A program made the position numbers and the translations under genes. DNA of 64,000 nucleotides from Irineochytrium annulatum (lineage: Eukaryota; Chytridiomycota; Chytridiomycetes; Chytridiales; Chytridiaceae): contig JADGJL010000013.1 in NCBI GenBank assembly GCA_027600665.1, positions 1-64,000 on the forward strand, in the 5' to 3' direction. Of this stretch, positions 48,101 to 60,038 are shown piece after piece (position 1 is the first letter of the stretch; every line of letters begins with the position of its first letter). A model generated the notes under the pieces. That model did no database searches and was not told where the DNA came from. It saw nothing but the letters and a program-made list of their open reading frames with translations.

Positions 48101-48162
48101 GGAAAAGGACAGGCCAAAGAATCGGCATGCCAAGTAGCACGCTGTATTCTAAGGCTCTGTCC
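48101..48162 (-). terminator. Riboswitch-controlled terminator of gcv operon
   Basis: On the reverse strand GGACAGAGCC (complement of 48153-48162), the 3' end of the second glycine aptamer, can pair with GGCCTGTCC (complement of 48107-48115), followed by TTTTCC and more Ts. Since the left arm is shared with the aptamer, glycine binding should prevent this terminator (ON switch). Confidence 0.7.
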
Positions 48163-48376
48163 CTTGTACCTGAGAGTTACCCCGCTGTATTTACAACAGG
48201 TTTCCCCTTGGGTGATCATAACGCCCGTACAGGGCGAATAGATGCTCTCCAGAGTTGCGTCCCGTAAAAGTCCTTTTGCCTGAGAGATTCACCCCCGCTT
48301 ATCGGTGGTTTACTCCTTCGGCGTTACCTCATGTACATCCCGAATCGGGTGTCACGGGTAATCTCTCCCTTTACAT
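48150..48376 (-). promoter_or_regulatory. Tandem glycine riboswitch
   Basis: Two similar aptamers on the reverse strand. The first (about 48376-48270) begins GGGAGAGATTACCC, contains GCCGAAGGAGTAAACC and ends AATCTCTCAGGCAAAAGGAC. The second (about 48262-48153) begins CTCTGGAGAGC, contains ACCCAAGGGGAAACC and ends AACTCTCAGGTACAAGGGAC. These are the conserved cores of glycine aptamers, joined by a short linker. Located before gcvT. Confidence 0.95.
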
Positions 48377-48625
48377 TCATCCGCGGGTATAACATAGTCC
48401 ATTAAACACATTTACTCTCCTCATTAAAACGTGAATCCACTACTGATGTCAAGAACGATATCATTGATATTGAATCAAAACCGAATATTTATTATATTTT
48501 AAATGATATTGTTCGTGTATTTAAAAAGACTGCGCTTACTATTCTAGTTTTCACCAGTATATGTAGAAAGAGTGTATTTAGGTTACGGTTTGGAGAGGCC
48601 GTTATCAAATAAATTGTGAGGTATC
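48377..48625. other. Divergent gcvT/gcvH intergenic region
   Basis: A/T-rich gap holding the gcvT promoter (reverse strand, upstream of the riboswitch; TATGTT-like -10 near 48394) and space for gcvH regulation. No ORF or RNA seen. Confidence 0.4.
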
Positions 48626-54745: not shown

Positions 54746-54784
54746 AAGAAGAGCCATACAGTTGTTAACTGTGTGGCTCTTCTT
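54746..54784. terminator. Bidirectional terminator
   Basis: Eighteen-base stem with one G-U pair (54746-54763 with 54767-54784), T-rich on both strands. Serves mtlD and the convergent CWC gene, whose last codons it overlaps. Confidence 0.88.
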
Positions 54785-55016
54785 TTGGTTGATGTTTACC
54801 GGCATAGTCATCCAAACAGCGCTGACATATACACGATTTTCGGCGCTGTTCTGCCGGAATGCGGTCAAATACACCCTCGGGGAAAGTAGCCCGGTTACAC
54901 CAGCATTCCGAATGAGGATGTCCTGCGGCATAAGAACAGCGATTAGGTTCACCGCATAATGGGCAGACAAGAACATCGATAGGGATGTGCTCTTGATCGT
55001 CTTGTTCTGCAGACAT
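54765..55016 (-). CDS. Cysteine-rich CWC family protein
   Basis: 83 residues. Eight Cys in a pattern with VCPLCGEPNRC near 18-28 and the ECWC motif near 41, ending in CICQRCLDDY. It matches the small 'cysteine-rich CWC' family, probably a zinc-binding protein of unknown function. Start at 55016 is set by GGGAGGG. It follows the MutS2-like gene by 146 bases on the same strand and may be cotranscribed with it. Confidence 0.82.
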   Translation of the reverse strand: MSAEQDDQEHIPIDVLVCPLCGEPNRCSYAAGHPHSECWCNRATFPEGVFDRIPAEQRRKSCICQRCLDDYAGKHQPKEEPHS

Positions 55017-55162
55017 ACAGTTCTTCCCTCCCTGTGGAATAGCTACGAGCTGAAGTTGAACATACTGCTCCCAGTATAACAGAAATGCGTCAGTGATTAT
55101 GGAATTCACTGTGTATATATGACTTCCAGTTTACCACCACATCTGCTTCTCCCAGGGGTTAT

Positions 55163-57175
55163 TCATTCATCAGGCGGTAATTCGATCTGTAGGCCTTCCA
55201 CATGTTTGCGTCCCATCAACTTACGTTTCTTTCGATTTTCCTTTGTTTCCAGCACAATGTCCAAGTCATAATCGTCACCTGGATAAAGCTCATCGGCAGA
55301 TATATGCAGGGTCAGGCGTTTCTTATGGATTTTGACTTTGCGTCCACGTATCATGACCCCGATATTTCCACGGCTATCCTCCACATCACATACGATTCCC
55401 GACTGATTCAGATAGGCCGCATACACCCGATCCCCTTTGCGAAACGTTTTGGCAGGAGCAGCAGAATCCAACTCTCTGGTTGTTCGCTGTTTGTGGAGAC
55501 CGATTGAATTTTTGGATTGCTTCGTCTGATTCAACTGATTTCGATTGGATAACTCTGTCGGGTCGTCTGCCTCCTTAGCGGAACGCTCCGGCGTCAGGAT
55601 CGGAGTTTCCATAGGAGGTGACGTGAACACCATTGTACGATCTCTCGAAATACTTTGATCTGACAGGGACTTGGAACGCTCGATAATTCGCAGTGGCATG
55701 CCCAGCTTTAATGCGATGGAATAAGCATAGCTCTCACCAGCTTCTCCGATACGCAATCGATACAGCGGCTGGAGAGTAACGGTGTCAAATTCCATACGGG
55801 CATTTTCGAATCCTGGCGTGGCCGCAGCAAAATGTTTGATTTCACCAAAATGAGTTGTCGCCACAACGGTTGCTCCGCGGCTGTGCAACTCCTCCAGCAT
55901 GGCAATGGACAGTCCGACACCTTCACCGGGATCTGTGCCGGAAGCCATCTCATCAATAAGCACCAGAGTTGACGTATTGGCCTGTTCCAGTATGCCAATC
56001 ATATTGCGAATGTGTGCAGAGAATGTACTGAGCGCCTGTTCCAGACTCTGCCCGTCACCAATATCAACCGCTACCTCGTTATAAACAGCCATCTCGCCAC
56101 CTTCATCCACCGGAATAAGCAAACCGGATTGCATCATCAGGGTTAACAAACCAAGGGTTTTGAGTGCGACCGTTTTACCCCCGGTATTCGGGCCCGTAAT
56201 AATGAGCGACGAATACGTCCTGCCAATGGCAAAATCAAGCGGAACCATGGAAGAACCCATGAACGGATGACGTGCACGTTGAAGGCTGATGTGGCCCTGA
56301 GTATTGACTTGAACGGTACGTCCGTCCATGGTGGCCGCATATTTGGCTTTGGCAAACAGGAAGTCCAATACACCAACCGTTTCGGTGTTCAGTGCGATTT
56401 CACGGTTATACGATTCGGCCAGAGAGGTTAAATCACCGAGAATTCTCATCTCCTCTCGGGACTCCTCCGCTTGTAGAGCGGCCAATTCCATCTGCAGACT
56501 TACTAACTCAACAGGTTCAATATATACGGTTTGCCCGCTTCCGGATTCATCCAGCACACTGCCTTTCACCTGTTTGCGGAACTCTTTCTTAATGGGCAGA
56601 ACGGTTCTTCCTCCGCGTTGGCTGATGACATGCTCCTGCATAATGGAACGATGTTTACTCACCAGAGAATCAAGCTTTCGTTTCATACGCTCCTCATTCA
56701 CCGTCATTTTTTTGCGAATACGAGTCAGCTCCTTGCTTGCTTGATCCTGAATGCGTCCACTATGGATGCAGCGCTCGATCTCACGCAGCAAAGGTTCGAT
56801 CAGAATCATGGATGCTGCATAGCGACTAACGGTGGGAGCGGCCCCAGATTTGCCCTCCATGTACTTCATGAGTTGTGCACAGCTCCGCAGGAACTGAGCA
56901 AGATGACTGAAGTCACGTTCACTGAATAGATAACCGGTGCCAAGCAGATCCATAATCGTTTCCATTCCGTCGAGTGAAGGGAGGGGGATACTGGCCCCGA
57001 AACGAATCAACGCAGCCGCTTCTGCTGTTTCTTCCAGGCGCAGCTGGATTAGGCGAGCATCTACCATCGGTTTTAGTTCTCTGGCATAACGTTTGCCCAG
57101 ATAAGACAGGGCGCAGTCTGCAACATTTTTTTGAATTTGTGGATAACCTAGACTGTTTAATGTGTTCTCATTCAT
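55163..57175 (-). CDS. MutS2-like ATPase lacking the Smr domain
   Basis: 670 residues. The N-terminal lever/clamp part (about 1-290) matches MutS2; the MutS-type ABC ATPase has Walker A GPNTGGKT (328-335), Walker B LVLIDEMASGTDPGEG (Asp408, Glu409) and the H-loop ATTHFGE near 441. A KOW-like domain follows at about 579-622. Standard MutS2 is about 785 residues and ends in an Smr nuclease; here the protein stops after KOW, and the coiled coil between ATPase and KOW is replaced by a short polar linker. No Smr sequence follows the stop, so this is not a frameshift. MutS2 has been shown to act on stalled, collided ribosomes; a ribosome-related role is inferred. AAGGAGAG precedes the ATG. Confidence 0.85.
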   Translation of the reverse strand: MNENTLNSLGYPQIQKNVADCALSYLGKRYARELKPMVDARLIQLRLEETAEAAALIRFGASIPLPSLDGMETIMDLLGTGYLFSERDFSHLAQFLRSCAQLMKYMEGKSGAAPTVSRYAASMILIEPLLREIERCIHSGRIQDQASKELTRIRKKMTVNEERMKRKLDSLVSKHRSIMQEHVISQRGGRTVLPIKKEFRKQVKGSVLDESGSGQTVYIEPVELVSLQMELAALQAEESREEMRILGDLTSLAESYNREIALNTETVGVLDFLFAKAKYAATMDGRTVQVNTQGHISLQRARHPFMGSSMVPLDFAIGRTYSSLIITGPNTGGKTVALKTLGLLTLMMQSGLLIPVDEGGEMAVYNEVAVDIGDGQSLEQALSTFSAHIRNMIGILEQANTSTLVLIDEMASGTDPGEGVGLSIAMLEELHSRGATVVATTHFGEIKHFAAATPGFENARMEFDTVTLQPLYRLRIGEAGESYAYSIALKLGMPLRIIERSKSLSDQSISRDRTMVFTSPPMETPILTPERSAKEADDPTELSNRNQLNQTKQSKNSIGLHKQRTTRELDSAAPAKTFRKGDRVYAAYLNQSGIVCDVEDSRGNIGVMIRGRKVKIHKKRLTLHISADELYPGDDYDLDIVLETKENRKKRKLMGRKHVEGLQIELPPDE

Positions 57176-57247
57176 GCGTAATCTCTCCTTGAATTTGAAT
57201 TGGGATTGCAGTTGACACGCGAAACATATTCCTGGAAAACGCAAAAA

Positions 57248-57280
57248 GGGCGGAGAATGAACAAACGTCATTCTCCGCCC
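57248..57280 (-). terminator. Second leader terminator before MutS2-like gene
   Basis: Perfect 13-base stem (57248-57260 with 57268-57280) followed on the reverse strand by five Ts. It lies only about 70 bases before the MutS2-like start and has no U-run on the forward strand, so it belongs to the leader. Confidence 0.85.
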
Positions 57281-57320
57281 TAAATATATGGAAAAGCAAA
57301 GTCCACTACAGGTCTATATT

Positions 57321-57348
57321 AAAAAATCCGCGCTGAACTCAGCGCGGA
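57321..57348 (-). terminator. First leader terminator before MutS2-like gene
   Basis: Stem TCCGCGCTGA/TCAGCGCGGA (57327-57336 with 57339-57348) followed on the reverse strand by six Ts (57321-57326). Outer complementary segments 57311-57317 and 57350-57356 could extend or compete with it. Confidence 0.85.
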
Positions 57349-57496
57349 AATAGACCCGGACAATGACAATCCCGGAGGCGATTTATGATATCCGCTGTTC
57401 TTAACTAAGTACAGGGATCTGGCGCATCATGAAATACACGTATGCCATGTGGGCACAAGCGCAATGAAAGGCCAAACTCCTGAATATGAAACTTGG

Positions 57497-57520
57497 TTAG
57501 TTAAGAACATTCACCGACAT
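57497..57520 (-). CDS. Seven-residue leader peptide (candidate)
   Basis: ATG at 57520 reading MSVNVLN then TAA. AAAGGAGAG (57529-57537) lies nine bases upstream, as strong a ribosome binding site as any gene here. The last four codons including the stop are the 5' arm of the long leader stem, so a ribosome on this ORF would change the RNA fold. Too short to have homology support. Confidence 0.55.
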   Translation of the reverse strand: MSVNVLN

Positions 57521-57555
57521 TAAAAATCTCTCCTTTGATTGAGGAATATGCAACC

Positions 57556-57585
57556 AATATAAACTGGAAATTGGTTTGAAGTCAA
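57556..57585 (-). promoter_or_regulatory. Promoter of the MutS2-like gene leader
   Basis: On the reverse strand TTGACT (57585-57580), 18 bases, TATATT (57561-57556). Predicted start near 57549, about 370 bases before the MutS2-like ATG. Confidence 0.75.
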
Positions 57586-57665: not shown

Positions 57666-57701
57666 TATAATAAACATACATATTAAAGGAGGATGCTCTT
57701 T

Positions 57702-60038
57702 TTGCCTAAGTATTTACTGCGTTTGCTCTGCTTTACCCTGATCCTCGGAGCCCTTCCCGTTATTGTTATTGGTTCGGTCTCGTACACGATTGCATCACGT
57801 GACATTGAGCAGAAAGTGCGTGAAAGCAACCTTCAGATATTGCATCAGACCCAAATGCGGGTAGAACAAGTTCTGCGCAGCCTGCAATTATCATCCATTC
57901 AGTATGTCAATTCACCCCTGGTACTTCAGGCGATGAAGAAACCGCTGGACAGCAGCGATTTTCAGGAGATTCGTGACCTTACGTCGGGCTTTAACAACTT
58001 GCAAGCGGTTACGAACATTGACCAAGCCTATCTGGTTAATCTGGACGAAGATTGGGTTGTTTCGATGCGTTCTTTTGGCAAATTGGATGATTTCAGCATT
58101 CGGGACCGGATTGGTTCTTATCTGACCTACACTAACAGCCTGTTCTGGGTCACTCAAAATGCCAGTTCAGCCAAAGAAAGTGTACCCGTGTCAGCTGGCA
58201 TGGGGGAACTGACACCCGAACAGGCACCTACTCTCATTTCATCGGATAATGTGGTCAGTATGGTATTCAAAATCCCGATGATGCCAACGAATGTGAAACC
58301 AAAGGGATTTCTTGTGATTGATATCGCCGATACGGAAATAAGTACATTCTTGAGCCGAAATGCGAATTCCGGAGATATGTACGTTTTGGATCGGGAGCAG
58401 AAGTATTTTCTAAACGATGTGCAGCAAGATGGGAAATATGACATGCTCAATAAGGAAATTGATGAAATGGTGCAAACGACAGGCCAGCCAGAGGGGTTCT
58501 TCAGCTCAGAGGTGGAAGGTAACCAAGTGGCGGTTAGCTATAGGCAATCTCCACTTAATGGCTGGTTATACGTGTCCGTTGTATCCCTTGGGCAGATCAC
58601 GGCCCAATCACAGAAAATTGCATTGGTTACCGGTGTCGCTACACTGGTCATGTTATGTGTAACGGGATTGGTCGCCATATACGGCAGTCGGCGGATGTAT
58701 TCACCGATCTCCAGACTGCTGCAATTTACGAAAGGGTTGGATTCCCCAGTTATTCCATCAGGACGCCGTCAGGATGAATTTATCTATATTGAGGAGCAAT
58801 TGTCAACCTTGTTCAGTTCGGAGAAAACGATGCGTGAGCAGATGAAGGGTCAGCATGTGCATCTCCAAGAGTTTTTTATGACCAAACTGCTAACAGGCAA
58901 AATCTCGGAAGAAGATTTCAGATATCAGGGAGAATTGTATGACTTCCCGACCGGGTGGGCAAGTCTTGGCGTACTCATGCTCCAGATGGATACGTTGGAA
59001 GGGACCCGATATGAGGAGCAGGATCGGGACCTGCTGCTGTTTGCTGTCAACAATATGGTAGGTGAACTCCTTCCTTCTGCAGTTCGGTTCACCCCGGTCA
59101 TGCTGGATGATGCCCAAGTCACCGTACTTGCCTCTGAACTCACGGATGAGGTGAAGCTGAAGGAATGGATGCACACCCAGGCAGACTGGATTCGCGAACG
59201 TGTCGTGACCTATCTGAATCTGCCCGTAAGTATTGGCATCAGTCGTTCGTACACTTGTATTGGTGATACGCCAAGAGCGGTCCAGGAGAGCCGCGAGGCT
59301 CTGCAAGGCCGGGTAAGTCTGGGCAGCCGTATTATTTTGCATTACGAGGATATACAGCCACGTGGTCAGATGGAGGCTGCGTTGTATACCCAGTTACGGA
59401 TGATTGAAGATCAGCTCGCTTCCGCGCTCAAGCAAGGAGATGAAGAGAAGACAGACGCCTATTTTACGCAATATTTGGGGTTGCTTGCAGATAAGAAGCT
59501 TCATTTCAGTGAATACCCCGTCATTATGGTTCAGTTGCTGTCTCGTGTATATCAGCTTGTTCAGGAGCAAGGTGGAGATGTGGCTGAAGTACTGGGTGAA
59601 AAAGCATCCATGTCACATCTGCTAAAGTTGTCCACATTGGACGAAATGACCAATTGGTTCCGCAAGCGGCTGTTCCAGCCTGTCATTCGTTTTTGGCGAG
59701 AGCAGGAAGAATCTCAATACATGAATATTGCAAGGCGCATGATTCGTTTGATCGAGGAACGTTATGATCGTGAATTATCGCTGGAGGCCTGTGCCGCTGA
59801 GCTTAATTTTCACCCTGTCTACCTAAGTCGGGTATTCAAGAAGGAAGCGGGAGTCAATTTTACGGAGTATCTCGCAGAATACCGTATGGAAAAAGCGAAG
59901 ACCTGGCTGCAAACAACCAATCTTAAAATATCGGAGATTGCGGAGAAATTAAACTATACCAATCCGACCGCATTTATCCGTACGTTTCGCAAAATCACAG
60001 GAACTACCCCCGGCAAGTACCGGGAGCAGCAGCGATAA
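57702..60038 (+). CDS. Membrane-spanning AraC-family regulator with extracellular sensor
   Basis: 778 residues. TM1 (about 5-28), an extracellular Cache-like sensor (about 30-300), TM2 (about 308-330), a cytoplasmic linker, and a C-terminal AraC HTH pair (about 680-775, with YLSRVFKKEAGVNFTEYL and AFIRTFRKITGTTPGKY). This one-component type, common in Paenibacillus, senses sugars or their binding protein outside and activates the neighbouring ABC operon. TTG at 57702 is chosen because AAAGGAGG ends directly before the ATG at 57693. Confidence 0.9.
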   Translation: MPKYLLRLLCFTLILGALPVIVIGSVSYTIASRDIEQKVRESNLQILHQTQMRVEQVLRSLQLSSIQYVNSPLVLQAMKKPLDSSDFQEIRDLTSGFNNLQAVTNIDQAYLVNLDEDWVVSMRSFGKLDDFSIRDRIGSYLTYTNSLFWVTQNASSAKESVPVSAGMGELTPEQAPTLISSDNVVSMVFKIPMMPTNVKPKGFLVIDIADTEISTFLSRNANSGDMYVLDREQKYFLNDVQQDGKYDMLNKEIDEMVQTTGQPEGFFSSEVEGNQVAVSYRQSPLNGWLYVSVVSLGQITAQSQKIALVTGVATLVMLCVTGLVAIYGSRRMYSPISRLLQFTKGLDSPVIPSGRRQDEFIYIEEQLSTLFSSEKTMREQMKGQHVHLQEFFMTKLLTGKISEEDFRYQGELYDFPTGWASLGVLMLQMDTLEGTRYEEQDRDLLLFAVNNMVGELLPSAVRFTPVMLDDAQVTVLASELTDEVKLKEWMHTQADWIRERVVTYLNLPVSIGISRSYTCIGDTPRAVQESREALQGRVSLGSRIILHYEDIQPRGQMEAALYTQLRMIEDQLASALKQGDEEKTDAYFTQYLGLLADKKLHFSEYPVIMVQLLSRVYQLVQEQGGDVAEVLGEKASMSHLLKLSTLDEMTNWFRKRLFQPVIRFWREQEESQYMNIARRMIRLIEERYDRELSLEACAAELNFHPVYLSRVFKKEAGVNFTEYLAEYRMEKAKTWLQTTNLKISEIAEKLNYTNPTAFIRTFRKITGTTPGKYREQQR

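Follow-up and report, generated by a model that had tools for sequence, protein, structure and literature searches.

What controls the MutS2-like gene on the minus strand of the window (the whole stretch of DNA analysed here, 64,000 nucleotides), and what might its product do? The first-pass annotation had placed this gene behind a ribosome-mediated attenuator, in which a promoter, a Shine-Dalgarno (SD) sequence, a seven-codon ORF, a 13-base inverted repeat and two terminators follow one another. All of these elements were located on the minus strand, and they are given below together with the two strands of the predicted antiterminator.

57556..57585, minus strand: promoter TTGACT-18-TATATT, recognised by its sequence pattern.
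57526..57536, minus strand: SD region of the leader ORF, AAAGGAGAGAT, kept across an alignment of 44 leaders.
57497..57520, minus strand: leader ORF ATGTCGGTGAATGTTCTTAACTAA, seven codons, MSVNVLN*.
57497..57509, minus strand: arm 1 of the anti-antiterminator stem, made of the last ORF codons and the stop; the stem covaries.
57431..57455, minus strand: hairpin TGCC-CACAT-GGCA (57455-57443) followed by the T-rich TGTATTTC (57438-57431), where relatives show a pause-like signal.
57396..57408, minus strand: arm 2, TTAGTTAAGAACA, partner of arm 1 or, by way of its 3' portion plus an extension, of terminator 1.
57391..57400, minus strand: 5' strand of the antiterminator, GAACAGCGGA, predicted to pair when the ORF is masked.
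57335..57348, minus strand: 3' strand of the antiterminator, TCCGCGCTGAGTTC, equal to the 5' arm and loop of terminator 1; pairing predicted.
57321..57348, minus strand: terminator 1 with its U tract (hairpin 57348-57327).
57247..57281, minus strand: terminator 2.
55163..57175, minus strand: gene of a MutS2 paralogue without SMR domain, 670 aa, ATG at 57175, matching TIGR01069.

The two 13-base arms (57509-57497 and 57408-57396) form a perfect inverted repeat with 88 nt between them, close to the 90 bases or so that had been claimed, and the claimed alternative pairing into a terminator was recovered between 57400-57391 and 57348-57335. The 12-base core of the repeat, allowing at most one mismatch, occurs at only two sites in the 64 kb (0.22 expected), and two occurrences were seen in none of 100 shuffles. 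The 374-nt leader folds with a z score of -8.6, which none of 100 shuffles equalled, and the leader up to terminator 1 with a z score of -6.4. Taken singly, the promoter hardly rises above chance, as the region holds 15 promoter-like sites against 10.4 ± 3.2 expected. Terminator-like sites are common in the region as well (9 against 5.8 ± 2.4 expected), which would suit the view that the two hairpins simply end some other transcript, the ORF and the repeat having arisen by chance. However, the neighbouring gene on the other side (57693-60038, plus strand) is divergent, so that terminators 1 and 2 can hardly serve another minus-strand gene and no such gene ends there; moreover, the order of the elements is conserved and the stem covaries, as described below. 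We therefore give this view a next to negligible probability. The paralogue's own SD starts at 57190, outside both terminators. No Rfam family scored above its gathering threshold at the leader, the best match below threshold being L20_leader (17.1 bits, E 0.89).

Conservation was assessed in relatives taken from one genome-contig scan. The best 80 of 184 were used, which are 51-95% identical and belong to Paenibacillus, Brevibacillus and one record labelled Neobacillus; with the window they make 81 leaders, many of them from close relatives, so that the leader counts are not independent. A seven-codon ORF behind an SD-like sequence was found in 80 of these 80 relatives and in the window (81/81), the search having required L or F, then N, at the peptide end, and in the relatives it lies 212 to 486 nt upstream of the matched coding start. 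The SD, the start and the in-frame stop of the leader ORF are conserved. In 78 of the 81 leaders at least 11 of the 12 positions of arm 2 match, terminator 1 is present in 79 and terminator 2 in 76, and the elements predicted at the locus thus recur upstream of its orthologues. A promoter matching at 10 or more of 12 positions precedes the ORF in 76/81 leaders, compared with 1/81 after shuffling. In the leaders of two species (L081 and L083) the ORF is accompanied by a single terminator and a weaker arm 2 (8 and 9 of 12), and the switch predicted for them is small. As a separate observation, terminator 2 (57247-57281 in the window; also L004-L083) keeps a core of GGCGGAGAATGA...TCATTCTCCGCC, of which both sides change together in some clades as judged by eye.

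The anti-antiterminator stem was examined with a covariance model, R1, of 160 positions, built from 44 leaders. Model matches numbered 107, including seven weak antisense ones, and 100 at a stricter cut-off; the covariation set consisted of 100 leaders aligned to R1, an alignment that leans to the model and in which related rows inflate the counts. The stem was paired in 95.3% of cells, against at most 44.3% when it was slid along the alignment. Cells with changes on both sides numbered 56 compared with a shuffled mean of 14.5, and the covariation score was 0.158 compared with 0.055; neither value was reached in any of 500 shuffles, whereas two weaker measures were reached in 8 and 20 of 500. 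The first-pass annotation had called for covariation in the 13-base stem, and the double changes supply it. Of the 12 stem pairs, 8 were invariant in the initial alignment of 44 leaders, so the support comes from the wider family. Compensation is also visible in the raw sequences, where GTTCAGATCTC goes with GAG(T/C)TCTGAAC and GTTCTGATCTG with CAGAACAGAAC, and where a TGA stop lies opposite TCA in four records; as a counter-case, TCA lies opposite a TAA stop in six leaders, which leaves that position unpaired.

The peptide behaves differently among close and distant relatives. In the 81 closest leaders 67 peptides start with MSV, and of the 16 peptide types all but one have VLN or ILN at the end (the search itself required L or F, then N). 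Such constancy would be expected if the ORF were a sequence-specific arrest peptide, with M-S-V-x-V-L-N stalling in the presence of one drug or metabolite, and there are precedents in the RLR motif of the hflXr leader (PMC6310831) and the RYR motif of the tlrB leader, as given in the accessible parts of the sources. In the wider family, however, the peptide drifts to forms such as MITGVLNS, MFAGVLNS, MRVMVLNF, MLVSVLI and MITGVQIS: codons 2 to 4 vary widely, and the ends (VLN, VLI or VQI, some with one more codon) change along with arm 2, so that the stem can account for the conserved VLN. The arrest-peptide reading was set back once these peptides had been compared, and we regard it as unlikely. 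That the stem covaries while the peptide drifts suggests that the leader ORF is a generic stall sensor tolerant of its own sequence. Generic stall sensing has likewise been proposed for very short uORFs and PLSA drugs by the authors of PMC10201436, in the portion of that paper available.

Two side observations concern the ORF. One leader (L211, genome G427) carries a natural early stop at codon 4 with both arms intact, and its relative L213 has CAA at that codon. On the plus strand of the window (57385-57408), the complement of arm 2 and its extension reads MISAVLN, seven codons with GGAGG ahead, directed towards the divergent gene; a similar complementary-strand frame (MISxVLN, LISxVLN and the like) occurs in 61/81 leaders and may result from the pairing with the leader ORF.

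With regard to the switch itself, the leader was to be folded with and without a ribosome on the ORF, and the outcome depended on the stage of transcription. When only the part as far as the loop of terminator 1 was folded, the mean number of pairs between arm 2 and terminator 1 rose from 1.0 with the ORF free to 8.2 with the ORF blocked (nucleotides up to position 23 of the ORF). Masking gave at least three additional pairs in 74/80 leaders and a loss of three in none (80 of 83 leaders, with L007, L026 and L040 skipped). In a broader set of 92 leaders the corresponding means were 1.3 and 10.5, compared with 5.7 for a shuffled terminator arm; 84/92 gained at least three pairs, none lost three, and 84 exceeded their own control. 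This set derives from 97 leaders (L196, L211, L265, L267 and L344 skipped, L344 being folded separately) and holds three places twice (L270/L283, L271/L287 and L273/L290). The switch was not clearly predicted in L070, L072, L077, L081, L083 and L118 of the 80-leader fold, nor in L204, L213, L235, L236, L260, L261, L263 and L339 of the 92-leader fold, L260, L261 and L263 being leaders of BpsA-like genes. Per locus, the duplex energy was only weakly better than that of shuffled terminator arms (mean z -1.17), at most 10 of 200 shuffles being as good in 10/80 loci. The gain in antiterminator pairing appears at the loop stage, whereas complete terminator 1 had a mean probability of at least 0.98 with or without the ribosome mask (79 leaders); the loop-stage fold was chosen after this equilibrium fold had shown no change. 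Since complete terminator 1 wins in either case, the switch would have to be kinetic, a race in which pausing could be of use. A candidate NusG-dependent pause signal, a hairpin with TTNTTT behind it, separates the ORF from arm 2 in 23/34 chosen representatives against 2.3 expected; the exact TTNTTT is missing in the window, which has TGTATTTC instead, and in 10/34 representatives.

The alternative pairing accounts for terminator 1, but no counterpart was found for terminator 2. An antiterminator for it was sought between arm 2 and terminator 2, and none was seen (mean z -0.34, 73 loci); nor did the freed 3' arm of terminator 1 offer a consistent partner (mean z -0.25, 25 loci).

Considering the anatomy, conservation, covariation and predicted switch, as well as the association with the paralogue and the place before resistance-type genes described below, we judge it very probable from the sequences that the leader is a conserved ribosome-mediated transcription attenuator. 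Under unstressed conditions ribosomes would finish translating the seven-codon ORF and detach, its end would pair with arm 2 as anti-antiterminator, and terminator 1 would then form and end transcription. A ribosome-targeting drug or another stress would hold a ribosome early on the ORF and so cover arm 1; arm 2 with GAACAGCGGA could then capture terminator 1 by its 5' arm and loop while the 3' arm has yet to be transcribed, and the polymerase would continue, presumably passing terminator 2, towards the MutS2 paralogue.

To see which genes follow such leaders, matches to R1 in five genome samples were assigned by tblastn; the samples overlap, and their counts are not to be summed. The training set already included BpsA-like genes: two of its 44 leaders, first found by a plain pattern, stand before such genes, and R1 was thus not built blind to this class. 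In the family of Paenibacillus sp. OVF10 (G001), 82 of 98 sampled genomes had a match, with 85 copies in all. Behind these stood 80 genes of the MutS2 paralogue (in the case of L209 matched over 109 residues only), four BpsA-like genes (one of them, behind L158 in G440, matched over 113 residues only and looking interrupted) and one contig end. Of the 16 genomes without an R1 match, 11 had no paralogue, with only full-length MutS2 and weaker MutS-type matches, and five had one by protein search; each of these five paralogues lies behind a 7- or 8-codon ORF, with matching arms in three as judged by eye. In L310 (G438) and L311 (G411) the paralogue lies behind the seven-codon ORF MSVVGSK with no recognisable arm 2, possibly a leader of different design; these two proteins show 37% identity and were assigned to the paralogue by their length and the absence of SMR.

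Among 250 genomes of the class, 41 had R1 matches, and the 48 matches preceded 36 paralogue genes, 10 BpsA-like genes and one APH-like kinase gene, the remaining one being the antisense of another match. In the family of G277 a match was found in 27 of 80 genomes, always before the paralogue. In the order of Brevibacillus reuszeri (G004), 25 of 39 genomes had together 40 matches, and the 31 examined were divided between the paralogue (18) and BpsA-like genes (13). Finally, 14 of 398 genomes of the phylum had one match each, preceding 10 paralogue genes, three ABC exporter genes and one ABC-F gene. Across the five samples, all examined matches thus precede five types of gene, except for the antisense and the contig-end match. 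A plain pattern gave 13 matches in 12 of the 398 genomes, six of them leaders of the paralogue; the other seven were rejected as leaders upon inspection. A second plain pattern matched in 35/98 genomes.

The BpsA-like protein matches the branched-chain polyamine synthase C-terminal domain (PF01861, 143.9 bits), and its solved relatives are named N(4)-bis(aminopropyl)spermidine synthase. Its genes follow leaders L149, L153, L158, L226, L260-L265, L267, L275-L277 and L356-L365, and G440, G451, G491, G630 and G635 are among the genomes that carry one leader copy before the paralogue and one before a BpsA-like gene. The ABC-F protein (448 aa visible) scores 380.1 with the NCBIfam model for ribosomal protection-like ABC-F, barely above the cut-off of 380. 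Its leader has the ORF MFIHVLN, the same arms and a different terminator, with a predicted antiterminator of GAACAGC and GUUGUUC when the ORF is masked, and it is the weakest R1 match (E 3.6e-4 per genome, 398 genomes searched). The APH-like kinase is a marginal APH match (24.9 bits against a cut-off of 23.2). The ABC exporter is similar to MsbA-type transporters, its visible part scoring below all 25 cut-offs shown. Terminators 1 and 2 are both visible in five inspected leaders of BpsA and APH genes.

The occurrence of the leader before BpsA-like, ABC-F, ABC exporter and APH-like kinase genes points to ribosome-targeting antibiotics. A broader reading is that the leader senses general translation trouble (starvation, ppGpp or failing initiation) and not drugs, the paralogue being a general stress gene. 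A sensor of wide range has been described in E. coli, where the toiL uORF answers at least five classes of inhibitor (PMC12121999, in the available text). However, the ABC-F, ABC exporter and APH-like kinase clients are of drug-defence types, each in few genomes, and the leader ORF has no run of codons for one amino acid; we consider the broader reading rather improbable, if somewhat less so than the arrest peptide.

The protein behind the leader is a MutS2-like protein as far as its core is concerned. It scores 586.5 bits against TIGR01069 (cut-off 400), over profile positions 1-513 of 790, which is the core only. It is not MutS2 itself: Pfam detected MutS_V only and no Smr match, and with the SMR domain absent we filed the protein as a MutS2 paralogue. 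The Walker A region is invariant in 27 aligned proteins, and a motif of the H-G-K-G-x-G type occurs in none of 31 paralogues compared with 22/24 canonical proteins, a comparison in which a few rows may be badly extracted. The AlphaFold model (mean pLDDT 76.7) shows the core and a five-strand KOW-like barrel (583-625), with a short, basic, low-confidence tail where SMR would sit. The closest solved structures are MutS2 proteins, including that of B. subtilis bound to collided disomes (7qv3).

The assembly also encodes a full-length MutS2 with 36% identity to the paralogue, though it is possibly a mixed assembly. Nine further genomes carry both proteins, one with a stop inside the full-length match. 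In a quick tree, 23/24 canonical rows group with support of 100 and 26/31 paralogue rows with support of 88. Four rows (L081, L083, L222 and L319) have very long branches, probably an artefact of longest-ORF extraction, and L310/L311 fall outside both groups; the tree is for these reasons used as weak support only for paralogue and canonical MutS2 being separate groups.

Two minor observations concern the surroundings of the gene. A small cysteine-rich CWC protein (PF14375; window 54765-55109, minus strand) is encoded behind the paralogue, and a relative of it lies downstream, inside the fetched flank, in 30 of the 80 loci (best 80 of 184); the CWC gene is possibly co-transcribed with the paralogue in part of the genus. 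The paralogue gene of the window shares 93-95% identity with Paenibacillus from the amylolyticus/xylanexedens group, yet the whole assembly comprises 26.9 Mb in 1082 contigs, perhaps mixed or contaminated.

What the paralogue might do can be approached through B. subtilis MutS2, a ribosome-splitting ATPase with which it shares the MutS2 core and a KOW-type domain; in place of the SMR domain, which the B. subtilis protein needs to bind collided ribosomes strongly, the paralogue carries its short basic tail. According to the accessible part of PMC10897456, loss of MutS2 makes B. subtilis hypersensitive to chloramphenicol, tetracycline and erythromycin. Without SMR the protein binds ribosomes much less strongly; mutation of KOW or SMR nevertheless causes only a modest sensitivity to erythromycin, whereas a Walker B mutant is as sensitive to it as the deletion. 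By analogy with these mutants, an SMR-less copy made on demand could act on stalled ribosomes before collision, its MutS2-type ATPase dismantling them without the SMR collision sensor. The paralogue might instead act on DNA, in anti-recombination or repair, given that the family model is named endonuclease MutS2 and that MutS2 of Helicobacter has been described as inhibiting recombination (PMC4739419, in the part available). A stall-sensing leader would fit a ribosome factor; this, the close structures, with 7qv3 among them, and the retained KOW-like barrel all argue indirectly against a role on DNA, for which we see little likelihood.

The likeness to ABC-F attenuators drawn in the first-pass annotation was apt: the closest designs in the literature consulted are the vmlR and hflXr leaders, and one leader copy itself precedes an ABC-F gene. 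As far as the accessible text of PMC9226507 goes, the B. subtilis vmlR leader likewise has its uORF in an anti-antiterminator stem and sets an antiterminator against an intrinsic terminator; it has a pause hairpin with TTATTT, to be compared with the candidate hairpin plus TTNTTT of 23/34 representatives here, and is induced by lincomycin. It differs in its three-codon uORF, MIN, in a fourth hairpin that sequesters the SD of the gene and in the ABC-F gene downstream, whereas the present leader has 7-8 codons, the arms GTTCTTAACT/AGTTAAGAAC and a second terminator. The CplR, VmlR2 and LsaA uORFs are also different, with the consensus MR[I/M], MK[L/Q] and MAGN over 3-4 codons in the available part of PMC10201436. 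The hflXr leader (rli80) of Listeria monocytogenes places an extra copy of a ribosome-splitting factor under short-ORF attenuation, as predicted here for a putative splitter, with an anti-antiterminator, an antiterminator and a terminator; another copy in that genome takes no part in resistance (PMC6310831, as far as available). Its ORF has 14 codons and an RLR motif, compared with 7 or 8 codons and no such motif here; the present leader further has two terminators and serves several gene families, and HflX is unrelated to MutS2. By analogy, a paralogue that keeps the MutS2 core and a KOW-like barrel and has lost SMR would follow the logic of HflXr. The toiL-topAI system has a uORF that senses several drug classes, as the leader ORF here would, but acts on topAI translation and Rho-dependent termination and not on an intrinsic terminator (PMC12121999, same portion). 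In the literature within reach (titles and the starts of abstracts, most subscription papers lying outside), no such leader and no inducible MutS2 paralogue were described.

In its widest form our proposal, which we hold to be evenly balanced between right and wrong, is that the leader is portable between genes, senses stalling independently of its peptide and marks a so far unrecognised regulon of translation stress in Bacillota. The leader's main client would be an additional ribosome-splitting protein, a MutS2 rid of SMR and thereby able to dismantle single drug-stalled ribosomes, and the BpsA-like relatives of polyamine synthases would be a second class of drug-tolerance genes, so far unsuspected, under the same control. 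If this is true, the paralogue would be the second ribosome-splitting factor, after HflXr, that is switched on only when ribosomes stall. With the covariance model such genes can be found through the leader instead of the coding sequence, and both a possible role of SMR-less MutS2 proteins and BpsA-like enzymes as drug-tolerance factors and stall sensing without an arrest peptide can now be tested. Elsewhere in the window (48155-48380, minus strand), tandem glycine riboswitch aptamers were detected with scores of 65.5 and 33.9 bits.
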